Of a stretch of DNA of 64,000 nucleotides, positions 10,008-63,297 are shown one piece after another. A model generated the notes under the pieces. That model was not told the origin of the DNA and searched no databases. It worked only from the letters and a program-made list of their open reading frames with translations. The stretch comes from Platycnemis pennipes (taxonomy: Eukaryota; Arthropoda; Insecta; Odonata; Platycnemididae): NCBI GenBank assembly GCA_933228895.1, contig OW121854.1, positions 10,605,131 through 10,669,130 of the forward strand, written 5' to 3'. Position 1 is the first letter of the stretch, and each line of letters starts with the position of its first letter. The position numbers and the translations under genes are program-made.

Positions 10008-10800
10008 CATCATCATCATTGGTCAACAATCCTAGGATTGTTTGACACAGCTTTCCACTCGATTCTTCTATCGGCCAACCTTTTCATTGTGACGTAATTC
10101 TTCTCCTTTACATCCTTCGCAACCTGTATGTTCCATGAATCCCATTCGAAGCCTGCCTTTTCCAATCTTCCCGTTCACTTTTCCCTCGACGATAGTCTTC
10201 GTCAGGCCATCGTGCCTCAAGATATGGCCAATTAAGTTCTTCTTCTTTTTAGATTTGTCAGCAGACTTCTCTTTTCTCCCACTCTTCTTAAGACTTCTTC
10301 GTTTGTTACTCGGTCGATCCTTTTAATCTTCATAGTTCTTCTGTAGCACCACATTTTGAATGCTTCCACACTTTCCTTCTCCGCTGCTGTCATCGTCCAT
10401 GCCTCACTGCCGTAAAGAAACATGCTCCAGATGTATGTTCTAGTGAATTTCTTCCTTACTTCTACGCTTGTATATCCAGCTGTAAGTATTTTATTCTTTT
10501 GATAGAATGCCCTCTTTGCCTGGGCTATTCTACTCACTATTTCTTTCTTGCTTCGTCCATCGTTGGTTACTCGACTTCCCAGGTAGCAGAACTCTTTCAC
10601 TTCATCAAGTTTTTGTTTTCCTAGTTTGACATTGGTTTTTGCCTCATCTTTCTTGCTGCACACCAGTATCTTAGTTTTATTCTTATTGATCTTCAGCTGA
10701 TATCTGGCCATTGTCATTTCCATGGTTACTATAATCTTGTTCGAATCCCTCTCTGTCCCTGCTATGAGTGCTATGTCATCAGCGAATCGCATTCTGTGTG
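10008..10800 (-). pseudogene. RTE-like LINE, 3' half of reverse transcriptase
   Basis: The minus-strand frame 10843-10232 reads [16 protein letters not shown], then [31 protein letters not shown], the [12 protein letters not shown] run, LYGSEAWTMTAAEK and [17 protein letters not shown]. This is the same reverse transcriptase and thumb region as at 5672-6557. The 3' end is at 10008 with a CATCATCATCATTGG tail. It lacks the first reverse transcriptase motifs because the copy is broken upstream by the segment at 10800-11060. Confidence 0.88.
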
Positions 10801-11060
10801 TCACAATAATGCACAGAGCATACACTAGCCTATGCATTTCCACCCTAAGTTGGTGTTATTTTTAATGCGCTAATTTTATAATTTCCATAGGCAAGGCTGA
10901 TTTTGGCATCTTTTGATTTATTTCCCATCCATATTTCTCTTGGATTTCTCAATTTATGGCTTATTCCATTCATTATTTTCTCTGCACACAATTTACCCCC
11001 AGTTTTTGTCATTCTTATGTCTTCTTGTGTATTCAATCAGTTCCATTTCTTTCCCTCAGT
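10800..11060 (-). repeat. Displaced piece of the LINE linker inside the LINE
   Basis: On the minus strand this holds a decayed copy of the linker that normally lies upstream of the reverse transcriptase (an EDIRMTKTGGKLCAEKIMNG stretch, compared with RRKHKNTKTEEGQLCYKRIK at 12020-12205). It separates two overlapping reverse transcriptase pieces that both contain the FADD box, so the region is rearranged rather than a single colinear element. Confidence 0.55.
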
Positions 11061-11910
11061 CCCTCTCTGTCTCTGCTATGAGTGCTATGTCATCAGCGAA
11101 CCGCAGCATTCTTATTTTTCTCCATGGATAGTCACTCCAGAAGACTTCTCTTTGATTTCATTGATGGCTCTCTCGATGTAAACATTAAAAATTATGGGAG
11201 ACAGTGCACAGCCTTGTCTCACTCCTTTCCTTATTCTTGCTTCTTCACTGTTGGGTCCAGATTTAATCACAGCTACCTGGTTTTTATACAGACTTTGATT
11301 AATTCTTCGGTCATTGTACGACACTCCAATTCCCTTCAGCATTCCAAGCATTGAATCCAAATCCACGTTGTCAAAAGCCTTCTCTAATTCCACAAATGCA
11401 ATGAACGTCGGCTTGTTCTTCTCCATTCTCTTCTCTATGCCTCTGGGCCTAAGGGCCAATATTGCTTCCCTTGTACCCTTAGTTTTCCTGAATCCAAATT
11501 GATCTTCATCCAGGAACTCCTCTACTTTTCTTTGTATTCTTCTATAGATGATCCTTGTCAATGTCTTCGATGCATGTGTAGTCAGGCTTATAGTCCTAAA
11601 ATTTTCAAGTTTCTCCGCTCTCTTCTTGGGAATAGGAATGATGATGTTTTTCTCGAAGTCCCGTGGTATTTCTCCTGTTGAGTACATATCGCAGATTGTT
11701 TTGTAAAGATGAGTTAATGTCTTCTCTCCTGCATTTTTATTTAGTTCTGCAGAAGCATCATCAATACCAGAAGCCTTATTCATCCGAAGGTCCCTTACTG
11801 CTGCGTCCAATTCCGATCTTAATATAGATGCCCCCATAGCATCCTTTTCCACTTCGCTTTCCTCTTCAATAGCTTTTATGCTGAAATTGTTTCCATTCTG
11901 CATCTCTTCC
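11060..11910 (-). pseudogene. RTE-like LINE, N-terminal half of reverse transcriptase
   Basis: The open minus-strand frame 11903-11112 (263 codons) reads from AVRDLRMNKASGIDDASAEL through GEIPRDFEKNIIIPIPKK, RTISLTTHASKTLTRIIYRR, EEFLDEDQFGFRKTKGTREA, IAFVELEKAFDNVD (the position of the first catalytic aspartate box) and [19 protein letters not shown] second FADD box, in another frame, lies at 11060-11115. This is the half missing from the + strand copy at 5672. Confidence 0.88.
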
Positions 11911-34400: not shown

Positions 34401-37400
34401 ACCGGATGAAATTTGAAAATGCCTTCCAGATATGCCTCGGGTGGAAACCAAACTCTCAATTGAGGCTGTTGTTTCTAAGATGTATGTGGAATGCCTCCTT
34501 TCTTAACACATTCGCTGCGGCGTGACCCACCGGTGGGTCACGCTAATCCTTCTAGCACCGCAGCCTTTTAATTCTTTGAATTGTCTCAACTTGCGAGGAG
34601 TATTGTGAGAGTAGGAATCGAGATCTTCTCGAGTGACTTCACCCAGAGGTTAGTCACAGTTCAAATAACAGACTGCTATGTGTCACTTAGTGTGACCCAC
34701 CGGTGGGTCACGCCGCCCCTCCTGAAACTTTTTTCAGCGTGAGCGGTGTGACCCACCGGTAGGTCACGAACAAATTTACATATTAGCGTATTATATCCAA
34801 AATACGTTTATTTTTGCTTTCTTTTTGCTTTTTCATGTTTATGCCATTTTTTATACATAAGGATGAACAATACTCGATATAGTAAAACATATCAACTTAT
34901 TAAAAATAATGAAAATGTTTAGGACAATTTTTTCTCCTCAACCTCTTGGCTGTCCGTCAATTGCTCGAAACTAAACAGTCCGAACTGCACTCGCCTGGCT
35001 GTGTGAGAGATTGACTCTCTCTCTTCCCTTCACCCCCCCCCCTCTACGGAAGGGCAATTGGGAAAGAGTCGCGTAGCGTTCTTGAGCCAATCCCTCAGTG
35101 GTGGATGAGTGACCGTGCCCTTGCCGGGTGAACGTCTTCCGAATTGCAGACACTACTTTTTTCTGAGTGAGACAAACCACTATGTACTCTTTCCAAAGGA
35201 TCCCCCTTCCCTTTTCTCATAGTGTGAGCAGGGCTGGGGAATCGGTACGCACGGACGGGCGTCTACGTCTCACAGATGGGCGCGAACAAGGGCAGGCGCA
35301 ATAAACAGAGACGGGTGGGAGTCTCCTGGGTTTTCCGAACGTCAGCAAATCTTTATCACATGCATTGTATTGTTGCCCATCCCTTCCCCCATCCCACGCC
35401 AGGGTCTAGCTGATAGCGTGCCCCACGTGGTCAGGGGAGGGGTGGGTTGGGGGCGAAGCTGGGAGTAGCCTCCCCCAGCCTTCCTCTAATCTCAGGAAAC
35501 AGCTGAGTATTGCCGCTTCAACCACCATCCCTCGGCAGTGGCCAGAAGCTCGGAAGGACTCTGACCCACCGGTGGGTCACACCGCCCATGCAAAAGGCTG
35601 AGTGTGACCCACCGGTGGGTCACGCCGCGCTGTGAGGAGTAGGGCTTTAAACAGCTCCGCAGTGAACGTGTTAACCAAGGAGCCATGGGAGCGATAAAGT
35701 AATTTTGCCTTGTCCCACAACGTCACATGGTCTATTGTGAAGCTGTGTTCAGTGACAGTCAATTCTCTCTGGTTGGACTGCTCATCAGAAATGTCAGCCA
35801 TATTCTCCCTATCATCTTAGCCATCTCATCCCTATGGTTCTGCAACTCTCTTTCACAAGAGATGACCACACTCACACAGGATACTACTGCTGGCCAATGA
35901 GATCCTTTGCATTCACCAGTCAGTCTTTTATTTTTAGCGGTAGCTAGTGAATGGCTTCCATGTTGTAGCACTAGTTTACAGTCAGTTTTTCCTCATCTTA
36001 TGAAGACATGCAGGTTTTGACTGGTGGTCCATGGTCCCCAATGCTGACCCTTAGACTACTCTGTCAAACTCCTTTGTGAAGTCTACAGAACAAGTATTAT
36101 CATGCCACTCTTGTATTTGCATGTATGCATACATATTCCTTTCTCTTAATATTCTGTTGATATGATAGCATCCTTGACTAGAACCAATCATTTCCTAAGA
36201 AGTCATTTGTCATCCCACTGGCCTTCAGTTAAGAATGCAAAGGATATCCTTTGTAACATTAGAAGTCAACCTTATTGCCCTGTGGTCCTTGCTGACTTGT
36301 ACTCTTCTCTTTTTCAGTACAGGGATCAAAACTTTTATTGCAAAGCCCTTGGGCCAGATTCCTTCAAAGACCCCATGGATAAGAGTGAAAAATACATATA
36401 TATATATATATATATATATAGCAATTTCAGGAAGCACGTGACGTGTAACACATGTATAATAGTCACTAGTTGCGACGACATAAAAAACACAGAAAACACA
36501 AAAAAGGGGACACTCACAAACGAATAAAACAGGAGCTTTCGAACAGCGTTGCTGTCTTTCTCAACCAGAAAGGAATACTGAGAGGATATGGGGGAAAGGG
36601 TGTTTAGGAGTGGAAGGGGAATGGAGGGGAAAACGGAGAGTCGGGGAGGGGAAGAAGGAGAAACGGGGAGGGGAAGTGGTGGGGACACATTGTAGTCACA
36701 ATGAGTACAAGTGTCGGTTAAAAGGACACATTGAGCCCAGGGGGGGTGCATGCCCTGAGGAGGAGTATGCAAGTTTGTTCAAGTGTGTGCAGGTTGACGG
36801 CGGAATCTGAGGGGGGGGAGGGAGGCAATAACGGAAACATTGAAACGTTGATTGAAGGGCATGTCATGAGTAGACGCGTGTTTAGGTACTGGTAGTGATG
36901 AGTGCGGGGATGACGGAATACGGTGATGACGGTGATTATTGACTCTTATGTTAAGAGGGGTGGTGCATTGTCCTACATAGAAGGCAGGACAGAAGTTGCA
37001 TTGGAGGAGGTAGATGATGTTGGTGGAAACACAAGTAGATGAAGGAAAAATTGGCAGAGACCTGAGTGTGGGAAGGAAAGAGGCAGGAGGAGAAGAGAAT
37101 ATAGGGCAAGTCTTGCATCTCGGACGTTTGCATGGAGAGGGGGGGACGTGAGTGTGTGGTACGGATTTGAGAAGCGGGCGGGTAGTTTTGAAAATATTGC
37201 TCAAATTAGGCGGTCTTTTGTATGTAATGCGGGGACATTTTGGGAAAAGTTTTGAAGTGGAATTGTGGTCTGAAAGAATAGGGAAAAGATCTTGTAGGAC
37301 TCGTTGTAAGGAATGTGCGCCAGGAACATATATATATACATATATATATATGTCTTGTATTCTTTTTGTACAGTTCAGTAAAACTGCATGGTCCACGTGG

Positions 37401-40400: not shown

Positions 40401-43400
40401 AACAAAGTTGGCAGAAACATGCAATTTGCCTCTCTTTTGTCACACCATGAGAAATTTTCGTTCCACAGACATACCTCTGCACAATGTGCATTTGTTGTTT
40501 TACTCTGAATTAATCATGGACACAATGTAAACAAAATCATGTTAGCTACCTAATTTATAATATCACCCATTCCAATGATTTCTTCGTGAGGAAGAAATTT
40601 TATGAAAAAGAACTTTTCTTAAAATTACCGTTTCTCACGGTAATTTTCAGGGGGGTTGGTAATTTACGAAAAATACTGCAGTAATTTACCGAGTTGCCCA
40701 TCTCTACTCATCAGTATCACAAGTTGTAATGGTTTGTTTCTGATAAATATGTGTGTGATTAGTACACTATGGGTGAAGGTAGGTCTAAATAGACGTTAAA
40801 TTCTTCCCGCAACCTTTCACACAAGGTCCCTCTTCATCCCCGCACACTTCCTGCCACCCATTGGTCTATCCAAGGGGCCCATCCCCCTCCTTCCCCTAGC
40901 CTGCATTCCTCCCTCACTCACTCCTTTCCACACACCTCTTCCCTTCTCCATCCACACCTTCCGTCCATCTCCTCCCTAACAGCCTCCTCTCCTCTCCCAC
41001 CAACTGCTGCACTTCTTCATTTGTCTTCCTCCCCTCCATCCTTCTGCATGCTCACATATAAAAAGCCGCGAGCCTGTTTTCATCTGCTTTTCCTTCTCTG
41101 TCACTGTCAAGCACCGTACAGTTATGCTCTGATAGCATGAAACTGGATTCTGGTACATACACGGTAGTGTGTGCCAAGGAGGAGAGAAGGGTTGTGCATC
41201 ATGGGAGGGGGGTGAGTGAGTGCCGGAGGACGGGGGGTGTGTGGCGTGGCGTGTACTCTACGGGAGAGGGACCCCCCCCCCCCCCCCCCACAGAGTGTGA
41301 GAAGAATGTCATCATCATCATCGTTCCCATTCCCAAATAAAAGAATAATGATAATATACTTGTCAGGCGACAAGTATTTTACATGCATTGTATGTGGCAC
41401 ATCAATTAAGAGAATTGAATATCTAGAAAATAAAAGGGAAAAAAGTGAGGGTTACATAGACAAATATACATCAATTGAATAATAACCTCTGGACAATAAA
41501 AAGTCTTTGACCTTTTGCTTGAAAACCATAGTACTCATAGGAGTTTTAATAACCTTTGGTAGCTTGTTATATAGCACTGAGCTCATAGATCTAAAGCCAC
41601 AGGCGGCTTTGCGACGCCTTTACCGCGAATAGAATAACTGAAACAAAAATTCCTCTCTCTAACAACTCGGGCGCCAGGTCTCCACGACCACCAGTTTAGC
41701 GATTAAGGCCGCCTCCGGCCTTAACCCACCCAGATAGTCTGCAGTGGCGACAATTTGCCAGGGTACGATGGGGTGATACGGGAACAATCAACAGGAACCC
41801 CCACACGTTAAAGTCAATTTCGGTATTTATTTAACTTGCAATTACAAAAGTTAGTCAATGTGGGCATAACACAGTAACACAAATTATTCACGGCTCAATC
41901 CCTCTCAAAGACATGAAATAAGTTGGCACAAATGGATTAACAGAACTGACTACATAGTGATACATAAATTATTTGGGGCTCGATCCCTCGCGAAGACATG
42001 AAATAAATTGGCACAAATGGATTAACAGACTTGATTGCCTTCCAAACGGTTGACTTAAATGGTTAACCCATTTAACATATTTGACACATTTAACACAAAC
42101 CCTGTCAACCTAACAGACGAAACTAATATCGATGTTTGGCTGAACTAAAATTAACTACTTAAGTAAACTGAACTCAGATGGGTAATAACCGCGGAAAAGC
42201 AAATTCCACAGACCGACACACACTTTCAGGACCCTGAAGCCACATACCTTCCACTCGTGGACAAATAGACCCAATATGGTGAAGTGATCACCCGTGGTTA
42301 ACACCTGAACACAGTCACGGTGCTCAACCACTACACCAGAGAGTTCGCGAGGAGAACCATCCCCGATGGAGTCCGAGAACCAAGAGAGAGCTTAACGCCT
42401 CGCTCCGCCGTCTCCTTGAGCTACGTCCCCATGGCGCAGGCACGATGACGCAGCTCCGTCGTCTGCTACAACGACCACGCACTATTGTAGCGCAAGCTTT
42501 CATCCGGCAGGCCCTGCCGAATTACTTGCTCGCTGGCGGTCTAGTGGGAGGCTCGACTGGCCAGATCCATGCCTCCTCCTCCACCCGGCAGCCCTTCAAT
42601 GTCATAGCTCGCTCTCTCTCTCTTTCTCTCTCTCATTTTCTCTCTCATTCTTTCAAAGGTAACGGGAAGTAGGAAAAATACGTGGCTTGAATTCCCAAAA
42701 TATACCCATCTCCAAGCTAACCCAAAAATTAGACATCGTTTACAGTTTCTCCATCCATTAACAAATACATATAAAAATAGAAAAAAAAAGCCAGTTAGAG
42801 AACATGTCATTTAGGAACAATAAGCAATAACAAATAATAGCATAATAACAAAGCAAATATTGGTTTACAAACCACTAACAAAATACCCTTTTGCTGCACT
42901 TGGGTCCCGGACTCCATAATCTCCCGTGTGCCAAACGCACTAAAAATAATTTCGTTACAGCTTTCGTAGTGCAAACAAATGGGATGTGCTAGTAACCATG
43001 TTGCCTAGTAACATGGTTATGGATTGCAGAGTTCAGTACTGAGTCTTGGTCATTACCTATGATGTGTAGAAAGGATATAAATGCAAGGTACAGGTAATGC
43101 ATGGGGGAATTTAAACAATGTTAACAGTTTTGGGCTTAGCAGTGTGGAAATCTTTCATCGTAGGAATGAAGGTTGAAATAGAGCGTTGCAATGCAACATC
43201 ATCAGGTGATGATGTTGCCTCGCAACGAAACCATGATCAGGGACAATAGATATATGTGTGGAAATTGCAGTGTTTCTATTTCAACCGTCATTCCTACAAT
43301 TTAAACAATGGGCAACAGGGAGAGAGCCAGAGAGTTCATTTGCAACTAAATGTATGACTGTCTTTTAAATTTTAAATATGTCATTTCATTGCTTGTGACA

Positions 43401-55400: not shown

Positions 55401-58400
55401 AATCCAGTAATGCTCCAAATTGTATTAGACCTACATAATTAATAAATGCCACATGTATATTAATAATTAATACATTTTTCAATGAAATATTTATTCTTTG
55501 ACTTGATTTTTCAATGTAAAAATAACCAAGATAAGTTAATATTTCCTAATTATAGCTAAAAGGTTTTAAATATAGTACAGGCACAAACTTGGAACAAATT
55601 TTACGACAAGATTTTGACAGTTTCATAGGTAAATGTAAGCAGGAGAGTTACTTAAGATAACCGTGCTTGCTCTAAAGTTAATCTGGAAGAATATGCAAAT
55701 TTTCCATGCTAGGAAATAAATTATACATGTATAATTCTGTGCATTAATATCAGCCGTTCACTGGCCATGCTGAAAGACATGAAGTTGGCCATGAATCTGT
55801 CCCGGAGGAATGTAAACATAGCTTGGTATTGGCTGCCAGAATTTTTGCTTTCTGATCTTTACGGTTCTCATACTGGAAGGAGCTGGCTTTGTCATTGCAG
55901 CTCAGAACTGGGTAATTTATAGCCCAGCTCGATATAGATGTTGTCGTGACATTGGAGGGAATAATATAACCGATTGGCTGTTTATTGGCCGAACAAGAAC
56001 CCGTTTATTATGCTCATGGAGTGTTTGCTGGGATGGGGTGGCAGCCTTGCTGTAAGCTGACTAGGCCGAGGGGAAGATGCTCAGAGGGCATCAGCAAGCA
56101 GATGATCGGGAGGATCAGGAAGAAACCAAAGCGGAAGCTACCATCTCTCCCACGCCTAGCGGTCCACACCTTCCGAAATTACTACAAAGACTACTCCGTC
56201 CATCCACCAGCCTTTAGCAACATATCACTGCTGTCACATCTGTTGCCTGATCCTGCGATCTCCACCTGGCTGCCAAAGAAGAAAAGGAAGAAGACAACAA
56301 GCCCCTCACAACCAGTGCTCCAAGAAAGTTCCCAGTGATGGTGAAACAGACAATGCAGTGACCACAGAACTATTTTTCCAAATTATTATATATATGTACA
56401 TGAATTCATATATTTATTTATCCATATTGTAACTGCTCCCGAATGTGAACAATCACATGTTGGGCCAGTTGGATGATAGCGACCAAGGGGAGTCAAGTCC
56501 TTCCCATCCCTTTTTTTTTCTTTCCTCCTATGTGCATTTAACTTTAGTTTAGTCATAAGTGTAGATGGGCAACTCGGTAAATTACAGTGCTAATTTTTGT
56601 AAATTACCATGGTATTTTTTGTAAATTACCAACACCCCTGAAAATTATGCACTGTTGTGCACCCCCACCAAAAGAGTGCACTGTCTCCCATAATTTTTAA
56701 TGTTTACATTGGGAGAGCCATTAACACATTCAATGCGGGAGAATTTAACCTGTCCGTCATCCGGTGACGGGAATTTTTTTTTCGTCTTTAATACGTTAAA
56801 ATAACGTCATTGGACTAAATAAATAGTTCTTTTGCGTGGAATTATATTTGTTTCATTTTTATTCCATTTTGTATCTATGGCCTCTTAAGAGGCCACGCGT
56901 AATCAGCAACTACACCTACATATGCAACCCGCTTCGCATGCCGTATTATTTTTTTCCCGTTGACGTAAAGATATATATTTTTTCTGTTGTGACGCATTTC
57001 TTCGAACAGGACTTGAAAACTGCCTACTTTCATTTTCTTCTCTCATTTCCATTGAAGTCAAATGTATGTACTTATGTACATTGTATGCTTCACAAATGGA
57101 AACCTGCAATGCTCTTTGACAACTGCTGGACCTAATGATAAGACGCTCCTGAGGCAAAGTTATCAGGAAATTGGGAAAAGATGTTTTTCGCAAATGTTAT
57201 TATAAGTTGAAATTACTTTCAGTCCAGGTTTTGGTTAAAGATACATAAGTATTTTTTGGATAATCTGCGATTTTTTAGGTTTTCCTGGGTGTGTGATGAA
57301 AAGTAATGCTGATTGGCAAAAACTACTTACAGGTATGAATTCAGCGTGAAATGTCCTACAAGGAGATGGAAATTTGTTTCTTGTAAAAGAAAAAAAGTTT
57401 AACTTTGAAAATGGTTTTTAATAATTGGAAAAATACATCAAAATTACATGCTATGATGGTCAATGAAGCAAGGCCTTAGGCACAATCCTGGCTCACCATC
57501 ACAATCAGGACAGAATGTGGTGACTTTCTTCACCACACCCTTCGAATAGCAACCCTGGCATCTTTTCTGCTTCCTTCTGTCCCCAGTTGAAAATGGGAGG
57601 TAGTCTGGGAAGTGCGCGTCCATTGGTTTGGGAGTTGAAGGACGCGAGCCTTGTCTTGAGTTGGGAGGAATCAAAGATTCGATAACTTCCAGACGGAAGT
57701 CATAAAACGACTTTTTTTGGTCACTGTACTTTTGAAACAAAAAATAACTATTCATTAGTAAAATTTGGAATATATGTATACCTAGTTTCTTGTACCATTT
57801 CACCGTTTTTCGCTCGCAAGCGTAGTACGACATCATTTGGTCGGAGCGGTCGACACCGCTCATATACTTATTGTAACATACGATGGCTTCTGGTTTTGTT
57901 GTTTTTACACCTCTCCTATTTTGAGTCTCTATTAGCTCTGATCCATATTCGCTGCTTATGGCGAGCACATCTCGCTTGTCTTTCCATTTTAGGACGCACA
58001 CTCCCTTATTGTTCCACAAGGAAACCACGTTACCTTTTGATAATTTTTTGCTCACTAAATCAGAAGGATTACCTTTTCTTGCTGATCGCAGTGTCCCAGT
58101 GCAATAAATCTTGTCATCTAGCAATTCCTCACATAGTTGAACACTGTTATAAAAGTTATCGAGAAACACTGAATGCCCAAGTCCTTTGAAATCCCCCAAT
58201 AAACTATGTACCACTTTACTAACATGCCCTTTTCCTCCTACCTCTTTGTCTGCAGATCCAGTGTAAACAATCAACCGCAAAACTAGGCCTGACGGCTCCG
58301 TTAGCATGTATAATTTCACACCATACTTATGGCGTTTATTTTTTATATATTGGCGAAAGGAAAGCCGACCCCTCCACAACACCATTGATTCGTCCAGAGA

Positions 58401-61400
58401 TAATTCCTTTTGGGGAGAATAAACTGTTTCCATAGTTTGAATGAAATTGTCGATTAGGGGCCTAATTTTGTTCAATGCATCCCCACTCCGTTCTTCGCCA
58501 CCTCGTGTTGCAGAGAAATTAAGGGCCTGCAAAATCCCTAGGAATCTATCCCGTGTCATGTTACTGGAAAAAGCTGGAAAATTGAAAAGTCTGCTCTTTT
58601 TCCAGTAGTCCACCAATCGATTTGTTCGAATTGTCCCAGTATGAAAAAGCAGTCCAAGGAAAATCTCGAACTCGTCTCGGGATAATCTCTTCCAATCGCC
58701 AATTCTGCTACGGGTGGCTGTATTTACCGTCAATATTTCGTCTGCCTTAGCGTTTGTGGCATCTATGACCAAGTCAAAAAAACCATCGTTGGCGAGAAGG
58801 TCAAAGTAGTGGCGTGGACTATTTCCTTGAGGAAAGACTTTCAATCCTGGGGTTCCAATGAACCGGAGCCTCGGAATACAAGGGCGGCCGGTGACCCAGA
58901 GAACGGGTTCCGGAGTAGTAGTGCTTGGCGATGGACGCAAAAGGGGAGCCGCGGGAGGTGCTGAGTCCCTTGAAATTCCGTCAGATATTACCGTTGATGC
59001 CTCTGTGTCATCATCCCCGCTGCTTTCACTCTCTTCAGAGTCAGTTCCGCTTCCACTCCAACTAAACAGCTCATCGTCATCGGAGGACAAATCATCCAAC
59101 ACCTGTCTCAGTTGATCATCGGTGAGCACCTCCTTTTCCTTGGACAAAGTTGCGCTAGATCTCTTTCTTTCTAAATTATGAAGTCCTGGAAATAAAAATA
59201 AACAGATAATGACCTGGCTTCATGAAGAATTGATAAATAAGATTCTTTTAGCACTAGAGCAATGGATAACTAACCGGAGGTAGACGGAACGGGTTCCTGT
59301 TCTTGACGCGTACGGCTTATTTTTTTCGGGCCCATGTCTGGAAAATTAAAATCAAATGTAGTTATGATACAAAAATCTCTAATAATTCATTTTCAGTGGC
59401 ACAGCTAATTATTCAATATAATCAGGATGAGAGTTTGCATTTACAGTATTATAGTAGAGAAGAGTATATAATTGAATTTTTTTATTTTAATAATTTGCTC
59501 CAACAGAATAACACTGCTTTTTTCCATAGTTTATTTATCATACTTGATTCAAAGTAGTTAATGAATTAGTCAGTTGGAGTAAAACACCCAAAGAATTTCA
59601 GGGATTTCAGTACTTATTTTTTTCAATTACGACGAATAGTAGTATATACAAAAAGAAATACTCATTTAATTTACATATATGTACAGTAATATTTACCTGA
59701 GGGTTGCCGAGTGCTCCTAAAAATCAGTCAAATCTTCACTAAAACACAGTTCTTTGCGTAGATAAAAGAACACTGTCTCTTCATAGATATTCTCTCTTCA
59801 AATGCCTCGTAAACCACTGACAAGAGGTGCAAAAACTTGCAACAGTCTGGTTAGGGTTTGACTGATGCTCACATGGTCTGCGAGAGCCCAAGTACTTGGA
59901 AGAACCGTGATGCGTCCGTGAGGTGAGGGCACCTTCGAGTGACTCCGTTTACTTCCCACTCGATTGCTGGCAAAGCGCGCGACCCAGGTCCGTGTCCACA
60001 CGCTCCCGGCTTACGACGAACACTCCTTGAAAAACCCACGCGACACCCACGCCGAAGGCAGAGGGCCCGGACTGGAAAGGGTTACTGAACCCTTGAATAG
60101 CGGTACCGCCAAGAAGTTCCCACTCCAAAGGGTATGTGTGAATCCTTATTGTTGGCAGCCGCCAGAGAAAAGGACCGGTCGAAGCTGCGAAGAAGCCCTA
60201 ATCCTGGAAAAACCAGAAAAGGGCGCCACTCGCCCGAACCGACGTGACCGGGGGAGGAGAAAAGGACCCAATAGCTCGAACAAGCTGCCATGGTGGTATG
60301 ACATGCTAACCCACCTTAGAAACAACTGGGAGGCCCAGGATCGAATGTCGGTCATATCACATGACTCTCAACTGACTTTCTATTGATTGATAAGAATTTT
60401 CTCATGTTTAATGCATGATTTAATAAAAAAATATTAAGTATTTTATCTAATATGTATAAACATTTAATTATGTAGTCATTTTTACCTCACAATCACAATT
60501 TAGTTTCTATAAAAAATGAAATAGTCTTTAAAAACATTTACAGCCTAAACAATAATGAGTATCGCAAATGTCGTTTACAATAAAACACGAAATTCTGAAT
60601 AGAAGCGCACATGAGAGAAAAATCTCCCTATTTGATTTTCTCTCTACAAAAAACATGGAAATCACGAAAAGTAAAAACGAAAACATGTATCAGGCCAAAA
60701 ATGGTTATATTAAGCACTGAAATGCTTGAAACGTCCCCTAGAGTGACTTCCGAAGCCAAGGAACCGAAAGAAACATTGAGAGAGCACGTGGCCTCTTAAG
60801 AGGCCATCCGTCATTCCCAAGAAACCAGCATGGCCTCATAAGAGGCCATCCGCATTGAACGTGTTAATGAAGTCAAGGAGAAGTGTTCTGGAGTGAACAT
60901 CCACGGAGAAACAATCAGCATGCTACGATTCGCTGATGACATAGCTCTCATAGCAGAGACAGAGAAGGAGCTGAATAAAATGCTAACAACCATGGAAAGG
61001 ACAATGGCCAGACAGCTGAAGATCAATAAGAAAAAAACAAAGATATTGGTGTGCAGCAAAAGAGAAGAGGTCAAAACCAACGTTAAAATAGGAAAACAGA
61101 AACTGGAAGAGGTGAAAGAGTTTTTTACCTGGGAAGCAGAGTAACCAACGATGGACGAAGCAAGAAAGAAATAGTGAGTAGAATAGCCCAGGCAAAGAGG
61201 GCATTCTATCAGAAGAAGAATCTACTAACAGCTGGAAATACAAGCTTGGAAGTAAGGAAGCAATTCATCAAAACATATATCTGGAGCATGTTCCTTTACG
61301 GCAGTGAGGCATGGGCGATGACAATAGCGGAAAAGAAAAGGATTGAAGCATTCGAAATATGGTGCTATCGAAAAGTGATGAAGATAAAATGGATCGACCG

Positions 61401-63297
61401 AGTGACAAATGAAGAAGTCCAAAGAAGAGTGAGAGAAAGGAGAAGTGTGCTGAAAACTATAAAAAGAAGACAGGCCACATCTTAAGACACGTTGGCCTGA
61501 TGAAGACAATCATCGAAGGATAAGTGAATGGGAAGAATGGAAAAGGCAGGCCTCGTATGAGTTACATAGAACAGGTTGTAAAGGACGGGAAAGAGAGGAA
61601 CTACGTTGGCATGAGGAGGTTGGCCGATAGAAGAATTGAGTGGAGGGCTGCATCAAACCAATCCTAGGATTGTTGACCCTTGATGATGATGATGAGCATC
61701 CTTTCAAAGGGGAAGCACTTTCAGAAGAGGGAAACACTCTGCTGAGAGAGTCATGGACAGTGGATGGTAACCTTGTATGGACAATTATGGTGTAATCCTG
61801 CATGCTGTATGGACGGCAGAAAGAGGAACCGAGTAGGTGGTGTCGTGGGACTAAGACAGTTTATTCTCTCTTCATGATCAGGCTCTTTTGGATTGCATTT
61901 GACACAGGGGGACAGTTTGGGTGAAGCTTCATGTGGGACAGGTCGTCAAGAAAGGATTGACCCGTACAAGTGCTGTTTCTTCTCACGCTGTGTGCACAGC
62001 ACCACAAGATGAAAGTCACTAAGGTGCTTTCTTCATATGTGCCAATCCAAGGATTGTAAAAGCCTTTAGAAATCCACCGTGAGGGAGGGAATCATGAAGG
62101 TTAAACCTTGTTCATCTCACGCCCTCTTTTCCGCAATCATATCGTGTTAACCATCAGAATGAGAAGTCGGGATGGTGGGGCTGCATTTTTTCACAGCCAG
62201 AAAGAACCGAGGCTGTATTTTATAGGGCTCCTTGTTCTAGTCAGTAGAGAGAAACTTGGTGTCTTGGTCACCCATGTTGAAGAGGTTGTCTTCCAGGAAA
62301 TGAGCCACGACTGTACTGAGAGAGCAGAATGCCAATCGGCATCTCTCAACTCAGGCCTATTAAGGAACACATCTTACCAGTGTTGTGGGGATGAGTGGGA
62401 TTTAATTGCCTCTGGTCATAATACTGGTGAGTATAAGGAGTACCTAATTGAGTTGGATTGTGGGGACATTATTTGTTTTATGCAGTCTGTCTGAAGTAAG
62501 AAATATTTTGCCCTAAGTAGGTATATAAAGATTAGGAAAAGATTAGAAGAAGAAGGATAGTCAGCATGCCTTCTCAAGCTTGTTCTGTATTCCTTTCATA
62601 ATAAAACTGAATTTAAAGGTGAAATTATGTTTTTTTTCTAATTTGTTGATCATCATGAATTTAAATGATGACAGTACAAACAGAAGCACAAGCTAATCAT
62701 GTAACACAAAAAGTGAATACTTTGTTATTTTACACACTATTTATTTAACCTCTACCGGCTTCAACATGTTCACGCCATTATCAAGAGGTTCAACACAAAG
62801 TGAACCTTTTGATAATGACGTGTAAATGTTGAAACCGGTGGAGATCAAATAAAGAGTGCTGAAAATTACAAAGCTCTTGTAATGGATAAATTCCATAAAG
62901 TCAACTCGTCAACAATTAATTTTAATTATGTATCACATAGCCTAGTGTGAAGTTTAAATAATGCACCCAGCTTTACAGGTGTCTCAAGGCCAAAATTTTA
63001 TGTTTTTTTGATCAGTGCATTATTTGAAATGGGAATCCCCCCTTACTGGAGTCTTACTAGTGTGGCGTCATTGAGGAAACGGAGGAGGAGTTGTTTGGAC
63101 TGTGGTGGTTAATGTGATGATTTGTTGTTCCAGGGAAATGAAGAAGGCAATGCAGGCACACAGCAGGAAGGGGGAAGGGACTTCTGGGATAAAGTGGTTG
63201 ATTTGACGTCCCTGAAACTCCAGTGGCTGGTCATGGTGGCCATTGTAGCGGTCCACTTGCTGATCACTTTCCTGCTTCCTGTGCCTGGGTGCCCTCG
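25293..63297 (+). CDS. HGSNAT: HGSNAT, heparan-alpha-glucosaminide N-acetyltransferase (gene span, incomplete at 3' end)
   Basis: HGSNAT is the lysosomal membrane enzyme that moves acetyl groups from cytosolic acetyl-CoA across the membrane onto terminal glucosamine of heparan sulfate, a step in its degradation. Eight coding exons with GT-AG borders join without a phase conflict into 382 codons plus two bases. Order: N-terminal luminal region (exons 1-3), first membrane helix and cytosolic loop (exon 4), the [19 protein letters not shown] segment with the active-site histidine (exon 5), the PW-FMWIMG helix (exon 6), [12 protein letters not shown] to [11 protein letters not shown] (exon 7), and [17 protein letters not shown] (exon 8). 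The human protein continues for about 240 more residues after this point, so the remaining exons lie past 64000. Introns of 1.8-7.9 kb hold nearly all the transposons on this side of the window. No stop, frameshift or missing key residue is seen, so the gene looks functional. Confidence 0.95.
25605..26055 (-). pseudogene. Copia RNase H, C-terminal part
   Basis: The frames 26068-25883 and 25841-25605 read [41 protein letters not shown] and, after a break, [29 protein letters not shown] and [11 protein letters not shown]. These are the copia RNase H motifs: ADWA, the usual SKKQ-T-A-SSTEAEY box (here with TMLSEY), DN, and H-IDI-HFVR-like, then ADI-TK. The missing part of the box and the frame break mark it as dead. 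Confidence 0.88.
26056..26511. mobile_element. Pogo/Tigger-type MITE in copia RNase H
   Basis: A 456-bp element with ends CAGTCAAACTC and GAGTTTGAGTG inside a TA duplication (26054-26055 and 26512-26513). Removing the element and one TA restores the copia frame on the minus strand as [14 protein letters not shown], which fixes the insertion to the base. CAG ends and TA targets are usual in the pogo/Tigger branch of Tc1/mariner. Inside are ATAACGAGCA and TACGAGCAAAAG blocks and a GTGTGTGAGCATGCATGTGT tract. No coding capacity. Confidence 0.9.
26514..27038 (-). pseudogene. Copia reverse transcriptase, C-terminal part
   Basis: The minus frame 27035-26829 has [15 protein letters not shown], the YVDD catalytic box of copia reverse transcriptase, followed by a decayed connection region. 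Stops follow shortly downstream. Confidence 0.88.
27039..28250. mobile_element. 1.2-kb MITE with CCATAGTTGG ends
   Basis: Inverted ends CCATAGTTGG and CCAACTATGG bound an AT-rich element. Both subterminal regions are built of TTAACTTTAACT-type words (AAAGTTAAAGTTAATC, AAAAGTAACTGGTTAAAGTT at the left; AAAAGTTAAAATATAAC, AAGTAACGATTAAATTAA at the right). It separates the copia reverse transcriptase codons LGLKRCLSD from [18 protein letters not shown] see no exact target duplication. The end style suggests hAT, but this is not proven. Confidence 0.75.
28251..28810 (-). pseudogene. Copia reverse transcriptase, N-terminal part
   Basis: The minus frame 28656-28366 reads [40 protein letters not shown] and [16 protein letters not shown]. 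These are the KARLVA-GF-Q-G-D-ET-SPV and AAQ-W-QLDV positions of copia reverse transcriptase, with some residues decayed. A fragment toward LGLKRCLSD follows before the MITE. Confidence 0.88.
28811..30060 (-). pseudogene. Copia integrase
   Basis: From the minus strand: a CPLGKLKR-like zinc-binding stretch appears as [19 protein letters not shown], then [11 protein letters not shown] (first catalytic aspartate region) and [14 protein letters not shown] at 30040-29678. After a break, 29545-29150 reads [20 protein letters not shown] (catalytic glutamate box), [30 protein letters not shown] and [13 protein letters not shown]. At least three frame breaks occur. The region 29300-28810 is the poorly conserved stretch between integrase and reverse transcriptase. 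Confidence 0.88.
30061..30600 (-). pseudogene. Copia zinc knuckle and protease
   Basis: Near 30600-30540 a CCHC knuckle reads [14 protein letters not shown]. Near 30430-30380 the protease active site is [12 protein letters not shown], with glycine in place of the usual serine of the D-S-G-A-S/T motif. The protease body follows in the frame 30324-30037 ([36 protein letters not shown]). Confidence 0.85.
30606..31335 (-). pseudogene. Copia gag
   Basis: Two frames, 31335-30970 and 30983-30606, overlap with a one-frame shift and make up a copia gag of the UBN2 type: [50 protein letters not shown], then [35 protein letters not shown] and a basic tail leading to the zinc knuckle. The ATG at 31333-31335 is the likely gag start, about 80 bases after the primer-binding site. 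Confidence 0.88.
31415..31429 (-). other. Copia primer-binding site (initiator tRNA-Met, anticodon loop type)
   Basis: The minus strand reads GGTTATGGGCCCAGG directly after the LTR. This is complementary to the anticodon stem-loop of initiator tRNA-Met (GGGCCCATAACC), the half-tRNA priming site known for copia elements. It supports both the LTR boundary and the element class. Confidence 0.9.
31430..31625 (-). repeat. Copia 5' LTR
   Basis: A 196-bp segment that on the minus strand starts TGTTGGTGGCAT, contains an AATAAAAACAGTC block as candidate polyadenylation signal, and ends GAAGATCAACA immediately before the primer-binding site. TG...CA ends agree with an LTR. No second copy exists at the other end, so identity rests on position and ends. 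Confidence 0.75.
31626..31974. other. HGSNAT intron 1, right remainder
   Basis: AT-rich intronic sequence with no recognisable gene or repeat, ending in the acceptor TTTGATTTGACAG. Confidence 0.5.
31975..32105 (+). CDS. HGSNAT: HGSNAT coding exon 2
   Basis: 131 bases, phase 0 in and phase 2 out, bordered by GACAG and GTAAGT. It encodes [20 protein letters not shown] and [16 protein letters not shown], continuing the luminal N-terminal region (human CYHCLFQVLVNVP). The split last codon (GA|G) completes with exon 3. Confidence 0.9.
32106..34300. other. HGSNAT intron 2, left part, no gene recognised
   Basis: No coding similarity found. A 20-base imperfect inverted motif near 33535-33600 (GGTGTTAATAGGCACC and GGTGTGAACACC) is the only structure noticed. 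Confidence 0.45.
34320..34502 (-). pseudogene. Penelope-like element C-terminus, part 2
   Basis: The minus strand reads [15 protein letters not shown], stop, then EFGFHPG and [19 protein letters not shown]. This matches the tail after the GIY-YIG domain of Penelope-like polymerases (I-EA-EI-L-NNTLNR-DG). It continues from the part at 35675-36000, from which it is separated by the MITE at 34507-35670. Confidence 0.7.
34503..34506. repeat. TTAA target duplication, left
   Basis: TTAA directly outside the MITE terminal repeat; the partner is at 35671-35674. Confidence 0.85.
34521..34767. repeat. Left palindrome cluster
   Basis: GTGACCCACCGGTGGGTCAC occurs exactly at 34522-34541 and 34692-34711, and with one change (GGTAGG) at 34748-34767. 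The first copy begins one base after the terminal repeat and its symmetry extends to 22 bases. Confidence 0.95.
35561..35623. repeat. Right palindrome pair
   Basis: Copies at 35561-35580 (first base C instead of G) and 35604-35623 (exact), spaced 43 bases start to start, about 50 bases from the right end of the MITE. Confidence 0.95.
35675..36000 (-). pseudogene. Penelope-like element, GIY-YIG endonuclease remnant, part 1
   Basis: Minus-strand reading gives [10 protein letters not shown] (matching the SIPCECG-VY core of GIY-YIG domains), a [16 protein letters not shown] segment, [20 protein letters not shown] and [11 protein letters not shown]. The last parts match AEH--T-GH-I-F-DAK-L-R in Penelope-like endonucleases. 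Stops interrupt the core. The reading continues on the far side of the MITE at 34502. Confidence 0.7.
36050..36395 (-). pseudogene. LINE-like reverse transcriptase fragment
   Basis: The minus strand reads [38 protein letters not shown], then a stop-broken [14 protein letters not shown] and FCRLHKGV. These match the W-PVPK-G, DYRPISLTS, Q-GFR-GRS-DQI and F-KAFD positions of non-LTR reverse transcriptases. It is cut off by the (TA)n tract at 36398. Confidence 0.65.
36398..36420. repeat. (TA)n tract, left of Penelope-like insertion
   Basis: ACATATATATATATATATATATA run; the matching tract lies at 37326-37350. Confidence 0.95.
36421..37325 (-). mobile_element. Penelope-like element, 5'-truncated, GIY-YIG domain
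   Basis: The frame 37396-36779 on the minus strand encodes [16 protein letters not shown], then a cysteine cluster ([13 protein letters not shown]) and [33 protein letters not shown], the GIY-YIG endonuclease core with its preceding CxxC fingers as in Penelope-like elements. The frame continues to about 36780, followed by a 3' region down to 36421 containing a GAAAGACAGCAACGCTGTTCGAAAG block. The reverse transcriptase is missing. TA-rich tracts border both ends. The frame is long and unbroken, so the insertion is recent. Confidence 0.82.
37326..37350. repeat. (TA)n tract, right of Penelope-like insertion
   Basis: ACATATATATATACATATATATATAT; the frame of the Penelope ORF reads through it as IYIYVYIYV before its upstream ATG, which is not a genuine start. 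Confidence 0.93.
37733..37875 (+). CDS. HGSNAT: HGSNAT coding exon 3
   Basis: 143 bases, completing the codon from exon 2 and ending one base into the next. It encodes [30 protein letters not shown] and [10 protein letters not shown], matching human EVCRLEYRFGEFGNYSLLV and CDLAVNEDPVDSNLPV. The two cysteines (VVC and SSC) are conserved, as expected for a luminal disulfide domain. Donor: CTCT|GTAATT. Confidence 0.93.
37876..39950. other. HGSNAT intron 3, no gene or clear repeat
   Basis: A stretch at 39345-39440 (TTGGAGCATCAGACTG and a CCCGTTCGGACAAACTC) resembles the two boxes of a tRNA-derived promoter and may be a very old SINE. A short (AG)n run lies at 39590-39603. Nothing else is recognised. 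Confidence 0.45.
39951..40134 (+). CDS. HGSNAT: HGSNAT coding exon 4
   Basis: 184 bases between TTTCAG and GG|GTATTT. It encodes the first membrane helix ([18 protein letters not shown]), a cytosolic loop rich in K, G and A, and the conserved [12 protein letters not shown] (human LRSVDTFRG) that opens the catalytic domain (DUF1624/HGSNAT_cat). The final glycine codon is completed by exon 5. Confidence 0.95.
40178..40706. mobile_element. 529-bp MITE with TAGAGATGGG ends, hAT-like
   Basis: Ends TAGAGATGGG and CCCATCTCTA bound a non-coding element whose subterminal parts are rich in GGTAATTTACC, CGGTAATTT and AAAATTACCG words in both orientations. TAG-type ends suggest hAT. The 8-bp flanks (ATCTAATG and CTCATCAG) match poorly, so the duplication has decayed or the class is wrong. 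A piece of the same family lies at 56562-56650. Confidence 0.82.
40780..41110. other. C/T-rich intronic stretch
   Basis: CT-rich sequence with many CCTCC, CCCTTC words and no coding or repeat structure recognised. Confidence 0.5.
41272..41289. repeat. C(18) homopolymer
   Basis: Eighteen consecutive cytosines; the length may be an assembly estimate because such runs are prone to error. Confidence 0.9.
41300..41650 (-). pseudogene. LINE 3' end, reverse transcriptase C-terminus
   Basis: The minus strand reads [20 protein letters not shown] and [20 protein letters not shown], then RGYYSID. This matches the LYN-LP--I----S---FK--LK-FLLS--FYS end of many LINE ORFs. It is followed by a 3' region with ACAAGTATATTATCATTATT and a GATGATGATGATGA tail at 41309-41322. 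The upstream part of the element is missing. Confidence 0.68.
41651..43140. other. HGSNAT intron 4, middle; no gene recognised
   Basis: It contains a direct repeat of about 60 bases (CGGCTCAATCCCTCTCAAAG at about 41890 and GGGCTCGATCCCTCGCGAAG at about 41977, each followed by ACATGAAATAA and TTGGCACAAATGGATTAACA), and a (CT)n run at 42610-42650. No coding similarity found. Confidence 0.5.
43160..43297. repeat. Foldback element with nested palindrome
   Basis: The outer arms GTAGGAATGAAGGTTGAAAT and its near complement ATTTCAACCGTCATTCCTAC are about 23 bases long. Inside, GCAACATCATCAGGTGATGA runs into TGTTGC to form a second palindrome, followed by CTCGCAACGAAACC. The central part resembles a GATGA - stem - GAAA arrangement. 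Confidence 0.85.
43759..44084 (-). mobile_element. tRNA-derived SINE with 11-bp target duplication
   Basis: On the minus strand it starts GGAGATCGGGTTGGTGTGGTGG. There is a pol III A box (TGGTGTGGTGGCTAGAGTA) and a B box (GGGTTCAATTCCC) in a tRNA-like head, then a body ending in ATAACCAACCAAC. The 11-bp TATGTTTCGTT flanks it exactly (43748-43758 and 44085-44095), evidence of LINE-mediated insertion. Confidence 0.9.
44096..44718. other. HGSNAT intron 4, right end
   Basis: AT-rich sequence with no recognised feature until the acceptor TTGTTTTACAG. Confidence 0.5.
44719..44826 (+). CDS. HGSNAT: HGSNAT coding exon 5 (active-site histidine)
   Basis: 108 bases. It encodes [20 protein letters not shown] and [15 protein letters not shown], nearly identical to human [20 protein letters not shown] and WNGLTVADLVFPW. 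The catalytic histidine (human H269) and the asparagine eleven residues before it (human N258) are both kept, so catalysis should be intact. The tryptophan codon is split TG|G at the donor GTAAGA. Confidence 0.97.
44827..45149. other. HGSNAT intron 5, left part
   Basis: No recognisable feature. Confidence 0.5.
45150..46546. mobile_element. 1.4-kb MITE with GCCCCGTTTACA ends
   Basis: Inverted ends GCCCCGTTTACATTACTAG and the complement of GCCCCGTTTACACTACTAG, one mismatch over 19 bases. The interior is AT-rich with short open frames lacking motifs. Sequence near the right end resembles 1380-1640. Confidence 0.82.
46547..47430. other. HGSNAT intron 5, middle; no gene recognised
   Basis: No coding motif or paired terminus found. 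Confidence 0.5.
47431..47602 (+). mobile_element. tRNA-derived SINE
   Basis: It begins TGCCGGCCCCGGTGGCAGAA with an A box (GGTGGCAGAATCCC) and a B box (GGTTCAAATCC) at tRNA-like spacing, a short body with ACCCTCCGGGGCATGGATG, and an AAATAAAGACAAATAAAAA tail. I see no clear target duplication. It is a different family from the SINE at 43759-44084. Confidence 0.8.
47944..48040 (+). CDS. HGSNAT: HGSNAT coding exon 6
   Basis: 97 bases. It completes the tryptophan of DLVFPW and encodes [20 protein letters not shown] and [12 protein letters not shown], matching human [20 protein letters not shown] and CSKFRLLGKIAWRS. It ends in phase 0 at CGG|GTGAGT. Confidence 0.95.
48262..48410. other. Possible LINE or SINE tail
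   Basis: An AATAATAATAATA run followed by TATTTATCGGTTCCCTAAAG and ATGGAACAGGTCAC has the look of the 3' end of a retroelement in reverse orientation. Not provable by eye. Confidence 0.3.
48575..49505 (+). pseudogene. RTE-like LINE, 5' end with AP-endonuclease
   Basis: A 5' untranslated stretch (CTAGAGCTGCACCGGTAGGA, ACGGGAAACCACCTCAATTA) leads into a + strand frame with [40 protein letters not shown] and a [20 protein letters not shown] run, then [20 protein letters not shown] and [11 protein letters not shown]. These are the N-terminal and middle endonuclease motifs. LSKVR stands where the family has the catalytic E in ISE-KW, so the catalytic glutamate is lost. The frame loses similarity at about 49440. 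This is an unusual 5' fragment without the 3' end. Confidence 0.8.
49792..49990. mobile_element. Short MITE with TAAGGCCATTTTACATGG ends
   Basis: About 200 bp with ends TAAGGCCATTTTACATGG and, on the right, a sequence whose complement is TAAAGGCTGTTTTACATGA. Its ends resemble those at 4637-5370. Confidence 0.7.
49991..51270. other. HGSNAT intron 6, no gene recognised
   Basis: A TTAACCCATTTATGCTGAAC word at 50213-50232 resembles a piggyBac-type end but has no partner. The 112-codon frame at 50096-50434 shows no motif. Confidence 0.45.
51271..51806 (+). mobile_element. MITE family A, complete copy with decayed left end
   Basis: The left terminal repeat has mutated (ATTGCCGTTTACC in place of ATGGGGTCGTTTACC), while the right end GAGTAAACGCCCCCATT and all internal blocks are retained. 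Confidence 0.87.
52274..54855 (-). mobile_element. 2.58-kb pogo/Tigger-like transposon, decayed
   Basis: Ends CAGTAGAACCTCTATTTTAC and the complement of CAGTAGAACCTCTTTTTTAC lie inside a TA duplication (52272-52273, 54856-54857). A minus-strand frame at 52512-52285 keeps part of a transposase C-terminus: [20 protein letters not shown] resembles the V-TIANCWRHAGF motif of Tigger/pogo transposases. The DDE core is not identifiable. A second element (53601-54279) is inserted. Size minus that insert is 1.9 kb, within the range of autonomous pogo elements. Confidence 0.85.
53601..54279. mobile_element. 679-bp MITE with CCCAGCC(A/G)GCACA ends, nested
   Basis: Ends CCCAGCCAGCACA and TGTGCCGGCTGGG are inverted with one mismatch. 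Subterminal GATGCGAAG and GCATCC words recur on both sides (GCGAAGAGGATGCAATGAGG at the left; TCCTCTTCGCATC, CCTTCGCATCC at the right). It lies inside the pogo-like element. Confidence 0.82.
55044..55217 (+). CDS. HGSNAT: HGSNAT coding exon 7
   Basis: 174 bases (58 codons), phase 0 both sides, from TTTCCTCAG to GAGAAG|GTAAGC. It encodes [40 protein letters not shown] and [18 protein letters not shown], equal to human RSFLLICIGIIIVNPNYC and [20 protein letters not shown]. The VLQR segment is the conserved membrane-interface motif. Confidence 0.96.
55218..56561. other. HGSNAT intron 7, left part, with an unrecognised 117-codon frame
   Basis: A + strand frame 55985-56338 starts [20 protein letters not shown] and ends in a lysine-rich tail ([14 protein letters not shown]). 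It is in an HGSNAT intron, has no known motif and no obvious splice partners. I do not call it a gene. Confidence 0.4.
56562..56655 (-). repeat. End fragment of the TAGAGATGGG MITE family
   Basis: TAGATGGGCAACTCGGTAAA and the following ATTACC, ACACCCCTGAAAATT blocks match the right end of the element at 40178-40706 in reverse. The sequence stops just before a remnant of an RTE-like LINE. Confidence 0.8.
56675..56720 (+). pseudogene. RTE-like LINE, left part split by piggyBac
   Basis: GTGCACTGTCTCCCATAATT and TTTAATGTTTACATTGGGAG match 5691-5740 of the LINE at 5672-6575. The LINE resumes at 60864. Confidence 0.93.
56721..56724. repeat. TTAA target duplication, left
   Basis: TTAA outside the piggyBac terminal repeat; the partner is at 60864-60867. 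The uninterrupted LINE would read GCCATTAATGAAGTC. Confidence 0.97.
56755..56771. repeat. Imperfect palindrome next to left end of piggyBac
   Basis: CCGTCATCCGGTGACGG is self-complementary apart from the centre. It lies 30 bases inside the left end. Confidence 0.75.
56877..56896. repeat. Left GGCCTCTTAAGAGGCC palindrome of piggyBac
   Basis: ATGGCCTCTTAAGAGGCCAC, with a perfect 16-bp core at 56879-56894, 154 bases inside the left end. Confidence 0.95.
57444..59335 (-). CDS. piggyBac-like transposase, two exons, 600 residues, intact
   Basis: Exon 1 is 59335-59275 ([20 protein letters not shown] plus one base), donor CCG|GTTAGT. The 89-base intron 59274-59186 ends in TTTATTTCCAG. Exon 2 is 59185-57444, joined in frame through [20 protein letters not shown]. 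The joined protein has 600 residues, a normal family length. It begins with an acidic serine-rich region (about residues 45-90). The DDD catalytic domain has its aspartates in LSLDES (about 285), VFLDNFY (about 363) and SGVDRSDQ (about 466, with the neighbour at 469). A C-terminal cysteine-rich domain follows ([27 protein letters not shown], about 563-598), which in this family binds the element ends as a zinc finger. It cuts at TTAA and pastes the element, normally without scars. No stop or shift is seen. The unspliced frame alone lacks an ATG, which supports the two-exon model. Confidence 0.93.
59336..60780. other. Upstream non-coding region of piggyBac
   Basis: 1.45 kb between the transposase start and the right-end palindromes. 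It contains a GC-richer block at 59880-60310 (GCAAAGCGCGCGACCCAGGT, AACCGACGTGACCGGGGGAG), possibly promoter sequence for the minus-strand transposase. The open frame 59964-60386 on the + strand has no motif. Confidence 0.45.
60788..60847. repeat. Right palindrome pair of piggyBac
   Basis: Two copies, GGCCTCTTAAGAGGCC at 60790-60805 and GGCCTCATAAGAGGCC at 60832-60847, 42 bases apart. Each is followed by ATCCG, the second just inside the terminal repeat. Confidence 0.95.
60864..61690 (+). pseudogene. RTE-like LINE, right part split by piggyBac
   Basis: It begins TTAATGAAGTCAAGGAGAAG and follows the copy at 5740-6575 closely: [80 protein letters not shown]. Single-base losses break the frame near 61125 and 61470. 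The 3' end is CAAACCAATCCTAGGATTGT with a TGATGATGATGATGAG tail at 61681-61696. Confidence 0.93.
61697..63133. other. HGSNAT intron 7, right part, with an unrecognised 128-codon frame
   Basis: A + strand frame 62108-62494 begins [20 protein letters not shown] and has six cysteines in its second half, but no motif I know. With no splice context it is probably chance or an old repeat. The foldback at 62735-62858 is listed separately. Confidence 0.4.
62735..62858. repeat. Foldback element, 57-bp arms
   Basis: The left arm (CACTATTTATTTAACCTCTA, CCGGCTTCAACATG, CCATTATCAAGAGGTTC) pairs along its full length with the right arm (GAACCTTTTGATAATG, AAATGTTGAAACCGGTGGAG, ATCAAATAAAGAGTG) around a loop of about 10 bases. 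The right arm holds GAAACCGG followed by AATAAA, as in the foldback at 14133-14299. Confidence 0.93.
63134..63297 (+). CDS. HGSNAT: HGSNAT coding exon 8 (last in window)
   Basis: 164 bases from TTGTTCCAG. It encodes [20 protein letters not shown], then a membrane helix ([20 protein letters not shown]) and PVPGCPR, equal to human [20 protein letters not shown] and [11 protein letters not shown]. The donor is taken as CTCG|GTACTA by comparison with the family, where the next residues are GYLGPGG; this splice site is weak. Reading on would reach a stop at ISA after 13 codons. Confidence 0.9.

Follow-up and report, generated by a model that had tools for sequence, protein, structure and literature searches.

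Two described transposon systems are closest to the element analysed here. In piggyBac of Trichoplusia ni, passages of PMC7351741 describe two cysteine-rich domains (CRDs) of the transposase dimer that hold the palindrome of one end and bend the DNA; on the left end the CRD dimer covers bp 17-33, with its groove centre at about bp 25. In piggyBat of Myotis lucifugus, the left end has G motifs at 11-16, 55-60 and 99-104, each with a palindrome 3 bp downstream, and the right-end motifs lie at 12-15 and 44-48 (passages of PMC11707139). The GCGG motif of piggyBat is described as contacted by the transposase core. One dimer sits at the tip, and a second, inactive dimer on the next unit holds the ends together, as outlined in part of PMC13405395. 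An added site is stated to raise piggyBac activity about two-fold (PMC7351741, in part), and a third site to restrain piggyBat (PMC11707139, in part). Non-coding relatives are also known: piggyBac-derived MITEs such as the coral CMITEs have TTAA duplications, short tips and many copies (passages of PMC2872659), as does the MITE studied here.

We analysed 64,000 nucleotides of the Platycnemis pennipes genome (the window, meaning the whole of that stretch), in which we identified a piggyBac-type MITE and a piggyBac-type coding element, F0. The MITE carries five palindromes, which we read, at a probability of roughly 85%, as predicted subterminal sites for the CRD dimer of a piggyBac-superfamily transposase distinct from that of F0.

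A MITE with five motif-plus-palindrome units

The element and its parts are located as follows (window positions).

34503..34506, no strand: TTAA, left copy of the target-site duplication
34507..35670, + strand: piggyBac-type MITE, 1,164 bp
34507..34520, + strand: left terminal inverted repeat CACATTCGCTGCGG, with GCGG at bp 11-14
34517..34541, + strand: unit 1, GCGGC and exact palindrome 34522-34541, centre bp 25.5 from the left tip
34692..34716, - strand: unit 2, exact palindrome 34692-34711 with the G motif inward, centre bp 195.5 from the left tip
34743..34767, + strand: unit 3, GCGGT and one-mismatch palindrome 34748-34767, centre bp 251.5 from the left tip
35561..35585, - strand: unit 4, one-mismatch palindrome 35561-35580, centre bp 100.5 and G motif bp 86 from the right tip
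35604..35628, - strand: unit 5, exact palindrome 35604-35623, centre bp 57.5 and G motif bp 43 from the right tip
35657..35670, - strand: right terminal inverted repeat CACGTTCACTGCGG
35671..35674, no strand: TTAA, right copy of the target-site duplication

The palindromic word GTGACCCACCGGTGGGTCAC is found exactly at 34522, 34692 and 35604 and with one mismatch each at 34748 and 35561; it was absent from all 100 shuffled controls. The preliminary description had placed a perfect palindrome three times near one end of the MITE and twice near the other, and coordinates and copies confirm this layout. The consensus of 30 genomic copies indeed has all five in exact form, although in the window copy only three are perfect and two have a mismatch. 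GCGG(C/T) directly adjoins one flank of each palindrome (5/5), and the repeated entity is thus a 25-bp unit composed of GCGGY and the palindrome. In unit 1 the palindrome extends to a perfect 24-bp palindrome (34520-34543), and units 2 and 3 are paired in inverted orientation, with 36-nt arms (83%). Both tips have GCGG at bp 11, and the motif recurs at bp 54 of the left end (consensus) and at bp 43 and 86 of the right.

A local tblastn search with 120 transposases gave no transposase remnant in the MITE, the weak short matches reaching E 0.052 for the best one listed. With its TTAA duplication, tips common with a coding element (12 of 14 bases are identical to those of F0), lack of a transposase gene and many copies, the element fits a piggyBac-superfamily MITE.

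The left end, with GCGG at bp 11 and a palindrome centred at 25.5, has the layout of piggyBat and piggyBac; in piggyBat, too, GCGG at bp 11 precedes a palindrome near bp 25 (passages of PMC11707139 and PMC13405395). The earlier statement that the palindromes are not explained by ordinary MITE structure was therefore too strong, since motif-plus-palindrome repeats already exist in piggyBat (PMC11707139, in part) and this kind of arrangement is known. The piggyBat units are described as tandem every ~44 bp, with imperfect palindromes on the left end only, whereas the word of the MITE is a perfect 20-mer present at both ends, and its two inner left units are inverted to each other. The right-end motif at 43 is comparable to that at 44-48 in piggyBat (PMC11707139, in part), but in the MITE it is followed by a palindrome. 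The MITE also resembles the piggyBac ends LE35/RE63, both of which carry a CRD-bound palindrome at unequal distances from the tips: internal repeats lie 3 and 31 nt inside the piggyBac tips (passages of PMC12324416), and the MITE palindrome starts 15 and 47 nt inside. However, piggyBac has one palindrome per end and the MITE has 3+2, and the palindrome sequences are unrelated. Repeated perfect palindromes are not reported for coral CMITEs in the passages of PMC2872659 that concern them.

The perfect 20-bp word at both ends, the 3+2 layout and the exchange of words between families within one frame (see below) did not turn up in the literature searched, which contained no report of the MITE word or of a family-wide palindrome address. 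Bouallegue et al. 2017 reportedly discuss inner inverted repeats.

Other repeats were seen in the window. Two near-identical palindromes, AACAATCCTAGGATTGTT and ACCAATCCTAGGATTGTT, lie 51 kb apart at 10025-10042 and 61657-61674 and perhaps belong to another repeat, and a 26-bp palindrome with one mismatch, GCAACATCATCAGGTGATGATGTTGC, is located at 43193-43218. RVT_1 reverse-transcriptase fragments at 5679-6554, 10235-10843 and 11115-11903 are retrotransposon remains.

Copies of the word and of the MITE across the genome

The exact word occurs at 2,071 places in the 1.79-Gb genome (88 contigs); base composition predicts ~0.0002 and the reversed control gave 0. With the MITE as query we obtained 1,047 genomic candidates, and the 40 that were scored match over almost the full length at 93-100% identity. 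The best 30 differ from their consensus by 1.5% on average, and 29 have TTAA on both sides. Their flanks show no mutual similarity at E 1e-20, which indicates independent insertions.

As to variation of the ends between copies, the right tip is CACGTTCACTGCGG in 30 of the 30 best-matching copies and the left tip is CACGTTCGCTGCGG in 24 of them, but one or two bases vary in less selected loci. Among 20 such loci, CTAG flanks one on both sides and ATAA another on one side, and the exact GCGG flank is kept at 56 of 84 sites. The proposed tie between the palindrome and piggyBac-type ends was borne out on contig C1, where loci were picked for the exact word and not for tips: each of the 22 word clusters listed on this contig, a small share of the 2,071 places, has a palindrome at 15 or 46-47 bp from a CACGTTC-like tip, and no cluster lies away from such ends. 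Both tips were recognised in 18 of the 22.

Some copies have fewer units. Five loci (L035, L036, L037, L045 and L048) have a 3+1 form, and three (L046, L047 and L059) have a short 1+2 form of about 240-250 bp. Copies that have moved can thus lack the inner pair on the left, or the second unit on the right. In L047 (G000:C1:25444300-25447500) the short form, near 1584-1832, lies between copies of CTAG and not of TTAA.

Public viral contigs and prokaryote genomes contained no exact match to the MITE palindrome. The tip pattern had three matches in viral contigs, which we attribute to chance; none has a bp 25 palindrome in the first ~75 bases.

Each of the five palindromes is exact in 26 to 28 of the 30 best copies, and their identity is 99.5% vs 98.3% for the rest of the element, a value that 20 of 5,000 random sets reached. 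Among the 20 less selected loci, mismatch at non-CpG positions is 2.6% in the palindromes, against 3.3% for the rest of the interior and 7.2% for the 30 bp surrounding palindromes; at CpG positions the values are 7.3%, 9.7% and 9.1%, and the CpG sites of the tips mismatch at 17.3%. Conservation of the palindromes is weak evidence, and we give it little weight because the gain is small and because these loci were chosen for an exact palindrome, which favours that outcome.

The coding element F0, an improbable source of the partner

The coding element in the window comprises the following features.

56725..60863, - strand: piggyBac-type coding element F0, 4,139 bp, between TTAA at 56721-56724 and 60864-60867, with tips CACATTCAATGCGG and CACGTTCAATGCGG
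57444..59147, - strand: main open frame of the F0 transposase, 567 aa
60830..60849, - strand: palindrome with one mismatch, 5' end, centre bp 24.5
60789..60806, - strand: palindrome TGGCCTCTTAAGAGGCCA, 5' end, centre bp 66.5
56878..56895, + strand: palindrome TGGCCTCTTAAGAGGCCA, 3' end, centre bp 162.5

An upstream exon is likely, judging from the sequence, with an ATG at 59335 and a GT..AG intron joining at about 59185. The protein has a DDE_Tnp_1_7 domain (E 4.6e-90) and its sequence is nearer to piggyBat (9c0f, E 5.2e-64) than to piggyBac (6x67, E 4e-28). The nearest protein is from the damselfly Ischnura elegans (56% identity over 98% of the query), and no relatives were found in viral contigs. 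Seven Cys/His residues at its C-terminus make up a pattern that hardly varies among 58 relatives. This CRD scores 19.9 bits against a zf-Tnp_2 cut-off of 24 and, searched alone, gave no useful sequence match. The predicted structure has a pLDDT of 84.8 overall and 91-97 over the CRD, and its best structural matches are again 9c0f and 6x67. As regards the C1-like cross-brace zinc fold of a piggyBat-type CRD, the VIA-align superposition on 9c0f extends to residue 567, but at 8.2 A rmsd.

The transposase at 57444-59335 had been proposed to bind the MITE palindrome. This is not what the element suggests: where the MITE has its word, F0 has TGGCCTCTTAAGAGGCCA, and no site in F0 comes within 3 mismatches of the MITE word. 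Given this different palindrome, the F0 transposase is an improbable partner for the MITE. The possibility that the MITE is a deletion derivative of F0 was rejected, blastn having matched only the right tip (15 nt) apart from short chance matches.

Piggybac families with one frame and different words

Searching the genome for transposases yielded 77 scored matches among 11,208 candidates, and 58 of the 77 lack an internal stop by our own count; this piggyBac set is rich and perhaps recently active. End stretches were read at 20 transposase loci, which represent 13 groups by C-terminal sequence. We found 5' ends for nine of these groups, making ten families with F0, and none in the other four (F6/F8, F11/F14, F13/F19 and F20).

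A palindrome with a score of at least 8 is centred at 24.5-25.5 in nine of the ten families with a readable 5' end (the score of F0 at bp 24.5 is 8). The palindrome of F2/F3 is imperfect, scoring 2 at bp 24.5 and 7 at 66.5. Scores of at least 8 occur at 0.19% of 53,840 background offsets, true sites counted in, and regenerated end controls reached 8 in 4 of 16,000 cases and 10 in none of 16,000. The tips of seven families were called from TTAA and the tip letters only, ignoring the palindrome, and six of the seven score at least 10 at 24.5-25.5. For F15-F17 and F18 the palindrome aided the choice of tip. Copies set in unlike flanks confirmed the tips of F15-F17 and of F2/F3 (identity falls to 40 or 35-38% outside, from 98-100% inside), a second copy confirmed that of F9, and F18 is without a confirming copy. 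In the flank of the second F9 copy (L102, G000:C44:80937414-80937914) lies a stretch that by eye resembles the start of a THAP-type protein on the strand of the F9 gene.

A second palindrome scoring at least 7 is present at 66.5-68 in seven of the ten families (F0, F1, F2, F4, F7, F10 and F15); F5 and F9 score below 7 there, and F18 has an inverted repeat of unlike sequence at 65.5. Eight of the ten have GCGG at bp 11, and in seven of those eight GCGG or ACGGA recurs at 53-56. The frame thus consists of the tip, a motif at bp 11 and palindromes near bp 25 and 67, often with an outer TGRC...GYCA; outer TGAC/GTCA is common to the palindromes of several families. The words filling this frame differ, and are ATGACTGCTTAAGCAGTCAT in F1, ATGACATACATGTATGTCAT in F4, ATGACTGCCCTGGCAGTCAT in F5, ATGTCATTCATGAATGACAT in F7, ATGACTCACACGTGTGAGTCAT in F9, ATGACAGCCCAGGGCTGTCAT in F10, GCGCCATCAATAGATGGCGC in F15-F17 and CCGACGACAATCGTCGTCGG in F18. 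At the F9 5' end (L078), one half of the second palindrome, TGACCCACC, equals a half-site of the MITE word and is joined to ATGTGAGTCA.

Three 3' ends were found. Those of F0 and F9 share G motifs at 11 and 43 and a palindrome near bp 162, and that of F2 has the motif at 42. The right end of the MITE shares the motifs at bp 11 and 43 with the family 3' ends, but has palindromes after 43 and 86. As for a partner of the MITE among the 20 transposase loci, the end stretches read there, which cover parts of the elements, lack the word core GACCCACCGGTGGGTC.

These observations suggest a wider reading, for and against which we see the odds as even: the subterminal palindrome would act as a family address, with at least ten piggyBac families using one frame and a core, differing per family, that a fast-evolving CRD reads, so that numerous transposases and MITEs could live side by side with no cross-mobilisation, and the MITE would have spread with more copies of the address, at both ends, than its coding relatives.

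A candidate partner locus on contig C44

A genome search with a pattern of two MITE words, spaced as in the coding families, had seven matches. Judged from the matched letters, five are right ends of the MITE with a 1-bp deletion, and one has no second word and apparently arose by chance. On contig C44 we found an end with a CACGTTC tip and three tandem MITE words (3, 1 and 3 mismatches); the word centres are 25.5, 67.5 and 111.5, and GCGG stands at 53 and 97. This three-unit layout is equivalent to that of the piggyBat left end. An extra A separates TTAA from the tip, and the first motif is CCGG.

A few hundred bases inside this end, on the opposite strand, is a decayed piggyBac transposase (G000:C44:96394403-96395691). 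It contains stops, is matched by 121 of 121 query transposases, shares 34% identity with the F0 protein and no more than 41% with any other, and retains a CRD-like piece, KKVVTYCPDCENQPAFCLK. Relative to this gene the palindromic end lies on the C-terminal side, whereas in families F0 to F18 it lies on the N-terminal side, and the second end of the element was not located. From its linkage to the word, the decayed gene likely represents a partner lineage of the MITE.

Alternative explanations

The palindromes could be irrelevant to the match between transposase and MITE, which the F0 transposase (57444-59147) would then move via the common tips CACRTTCRMTGCGG. The tips are indeed alike at 12 of 14 bases and both elements lie in one window. 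Yet the palindrome that F0 carries at bp 24.5 and 66.5 is another one, F0 has nothing within 3 mismatches of the MITE word, and that word is instead found beside the decayed transposase on C44; we regard mobilisation by F0 as highly improbable. The units might also be passive, that is, tandem duplications of the tip region that are functionless apart from the tips. Unit number differs among copies (3+2, 3+1 and 1+2), which shows that the element can do without some of its inner units, and for the inner left pair this explanation may hold. For the whole set it is quite unlikely, as all five palindromes are exact in the consensus although the flanks between them are unrelated, and the 42-45 bp spacing recurs in other families and at the C44 locus.

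A host DNA-binding protein rather than a transposase could read the palindrome and open or silence MITE chromatin. TGACCC-N6-GGGTCA is what we take to be an everted pair of nuclear-receptor-like half-sites, and the outer TGAC/GTCA is repeated in several families. Against a host factor stand the fixed distance of the palindrome from the tip (15 or 46-47 bp) and the unrelated words TGGCCTCTTAAGAGGCCA, GCGCCATCAATAGATGGCGC and CCGACGACAATCGTCGTCGG at the equivalent place in other families, which a single host factor would not read; we judge this explanation highly improbable.

The position of the palindromes, the adjacent GCGG, the family-wide frame and a transposase-linked end with the MITE word all support the preliminary comparison with CRD-dimer sites of piggyBac, and the palindromes are putative sites of this kind.

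Proposed mechanism and significance

By analogy with the described systems, a CRD dimer would bind the MITE palindrome. In each repeated unit, the GCGG motif would serve the transposase core and the palindrome two DNA-bending CRDs. Units 1 and 5 could form the working complex together with both tips, and unit 4 may offer a second dimer site. The inner left pair (units 2 and 3) might, as a guess, capture transposase or restrain the reaction. The palindrome word would determine which transposase moves the MITE, and the extra units may influence capture or regulation. They bear on a conflict in the literature, in which an added site raises the activity of piggyBac and a third site restrains piggyBat.

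In two structures of the piggyBac superfamily, the CRDs sit on palindromes that are unrelated in sequence. One genome with at least ten families that have a common frame, different words and adjacent CRD sequences makes a CRD-to-palindrome code testable. Such a code would explain the loyalty of a MITE to one transposase, and the family words could yield mutually blind transposon systems.
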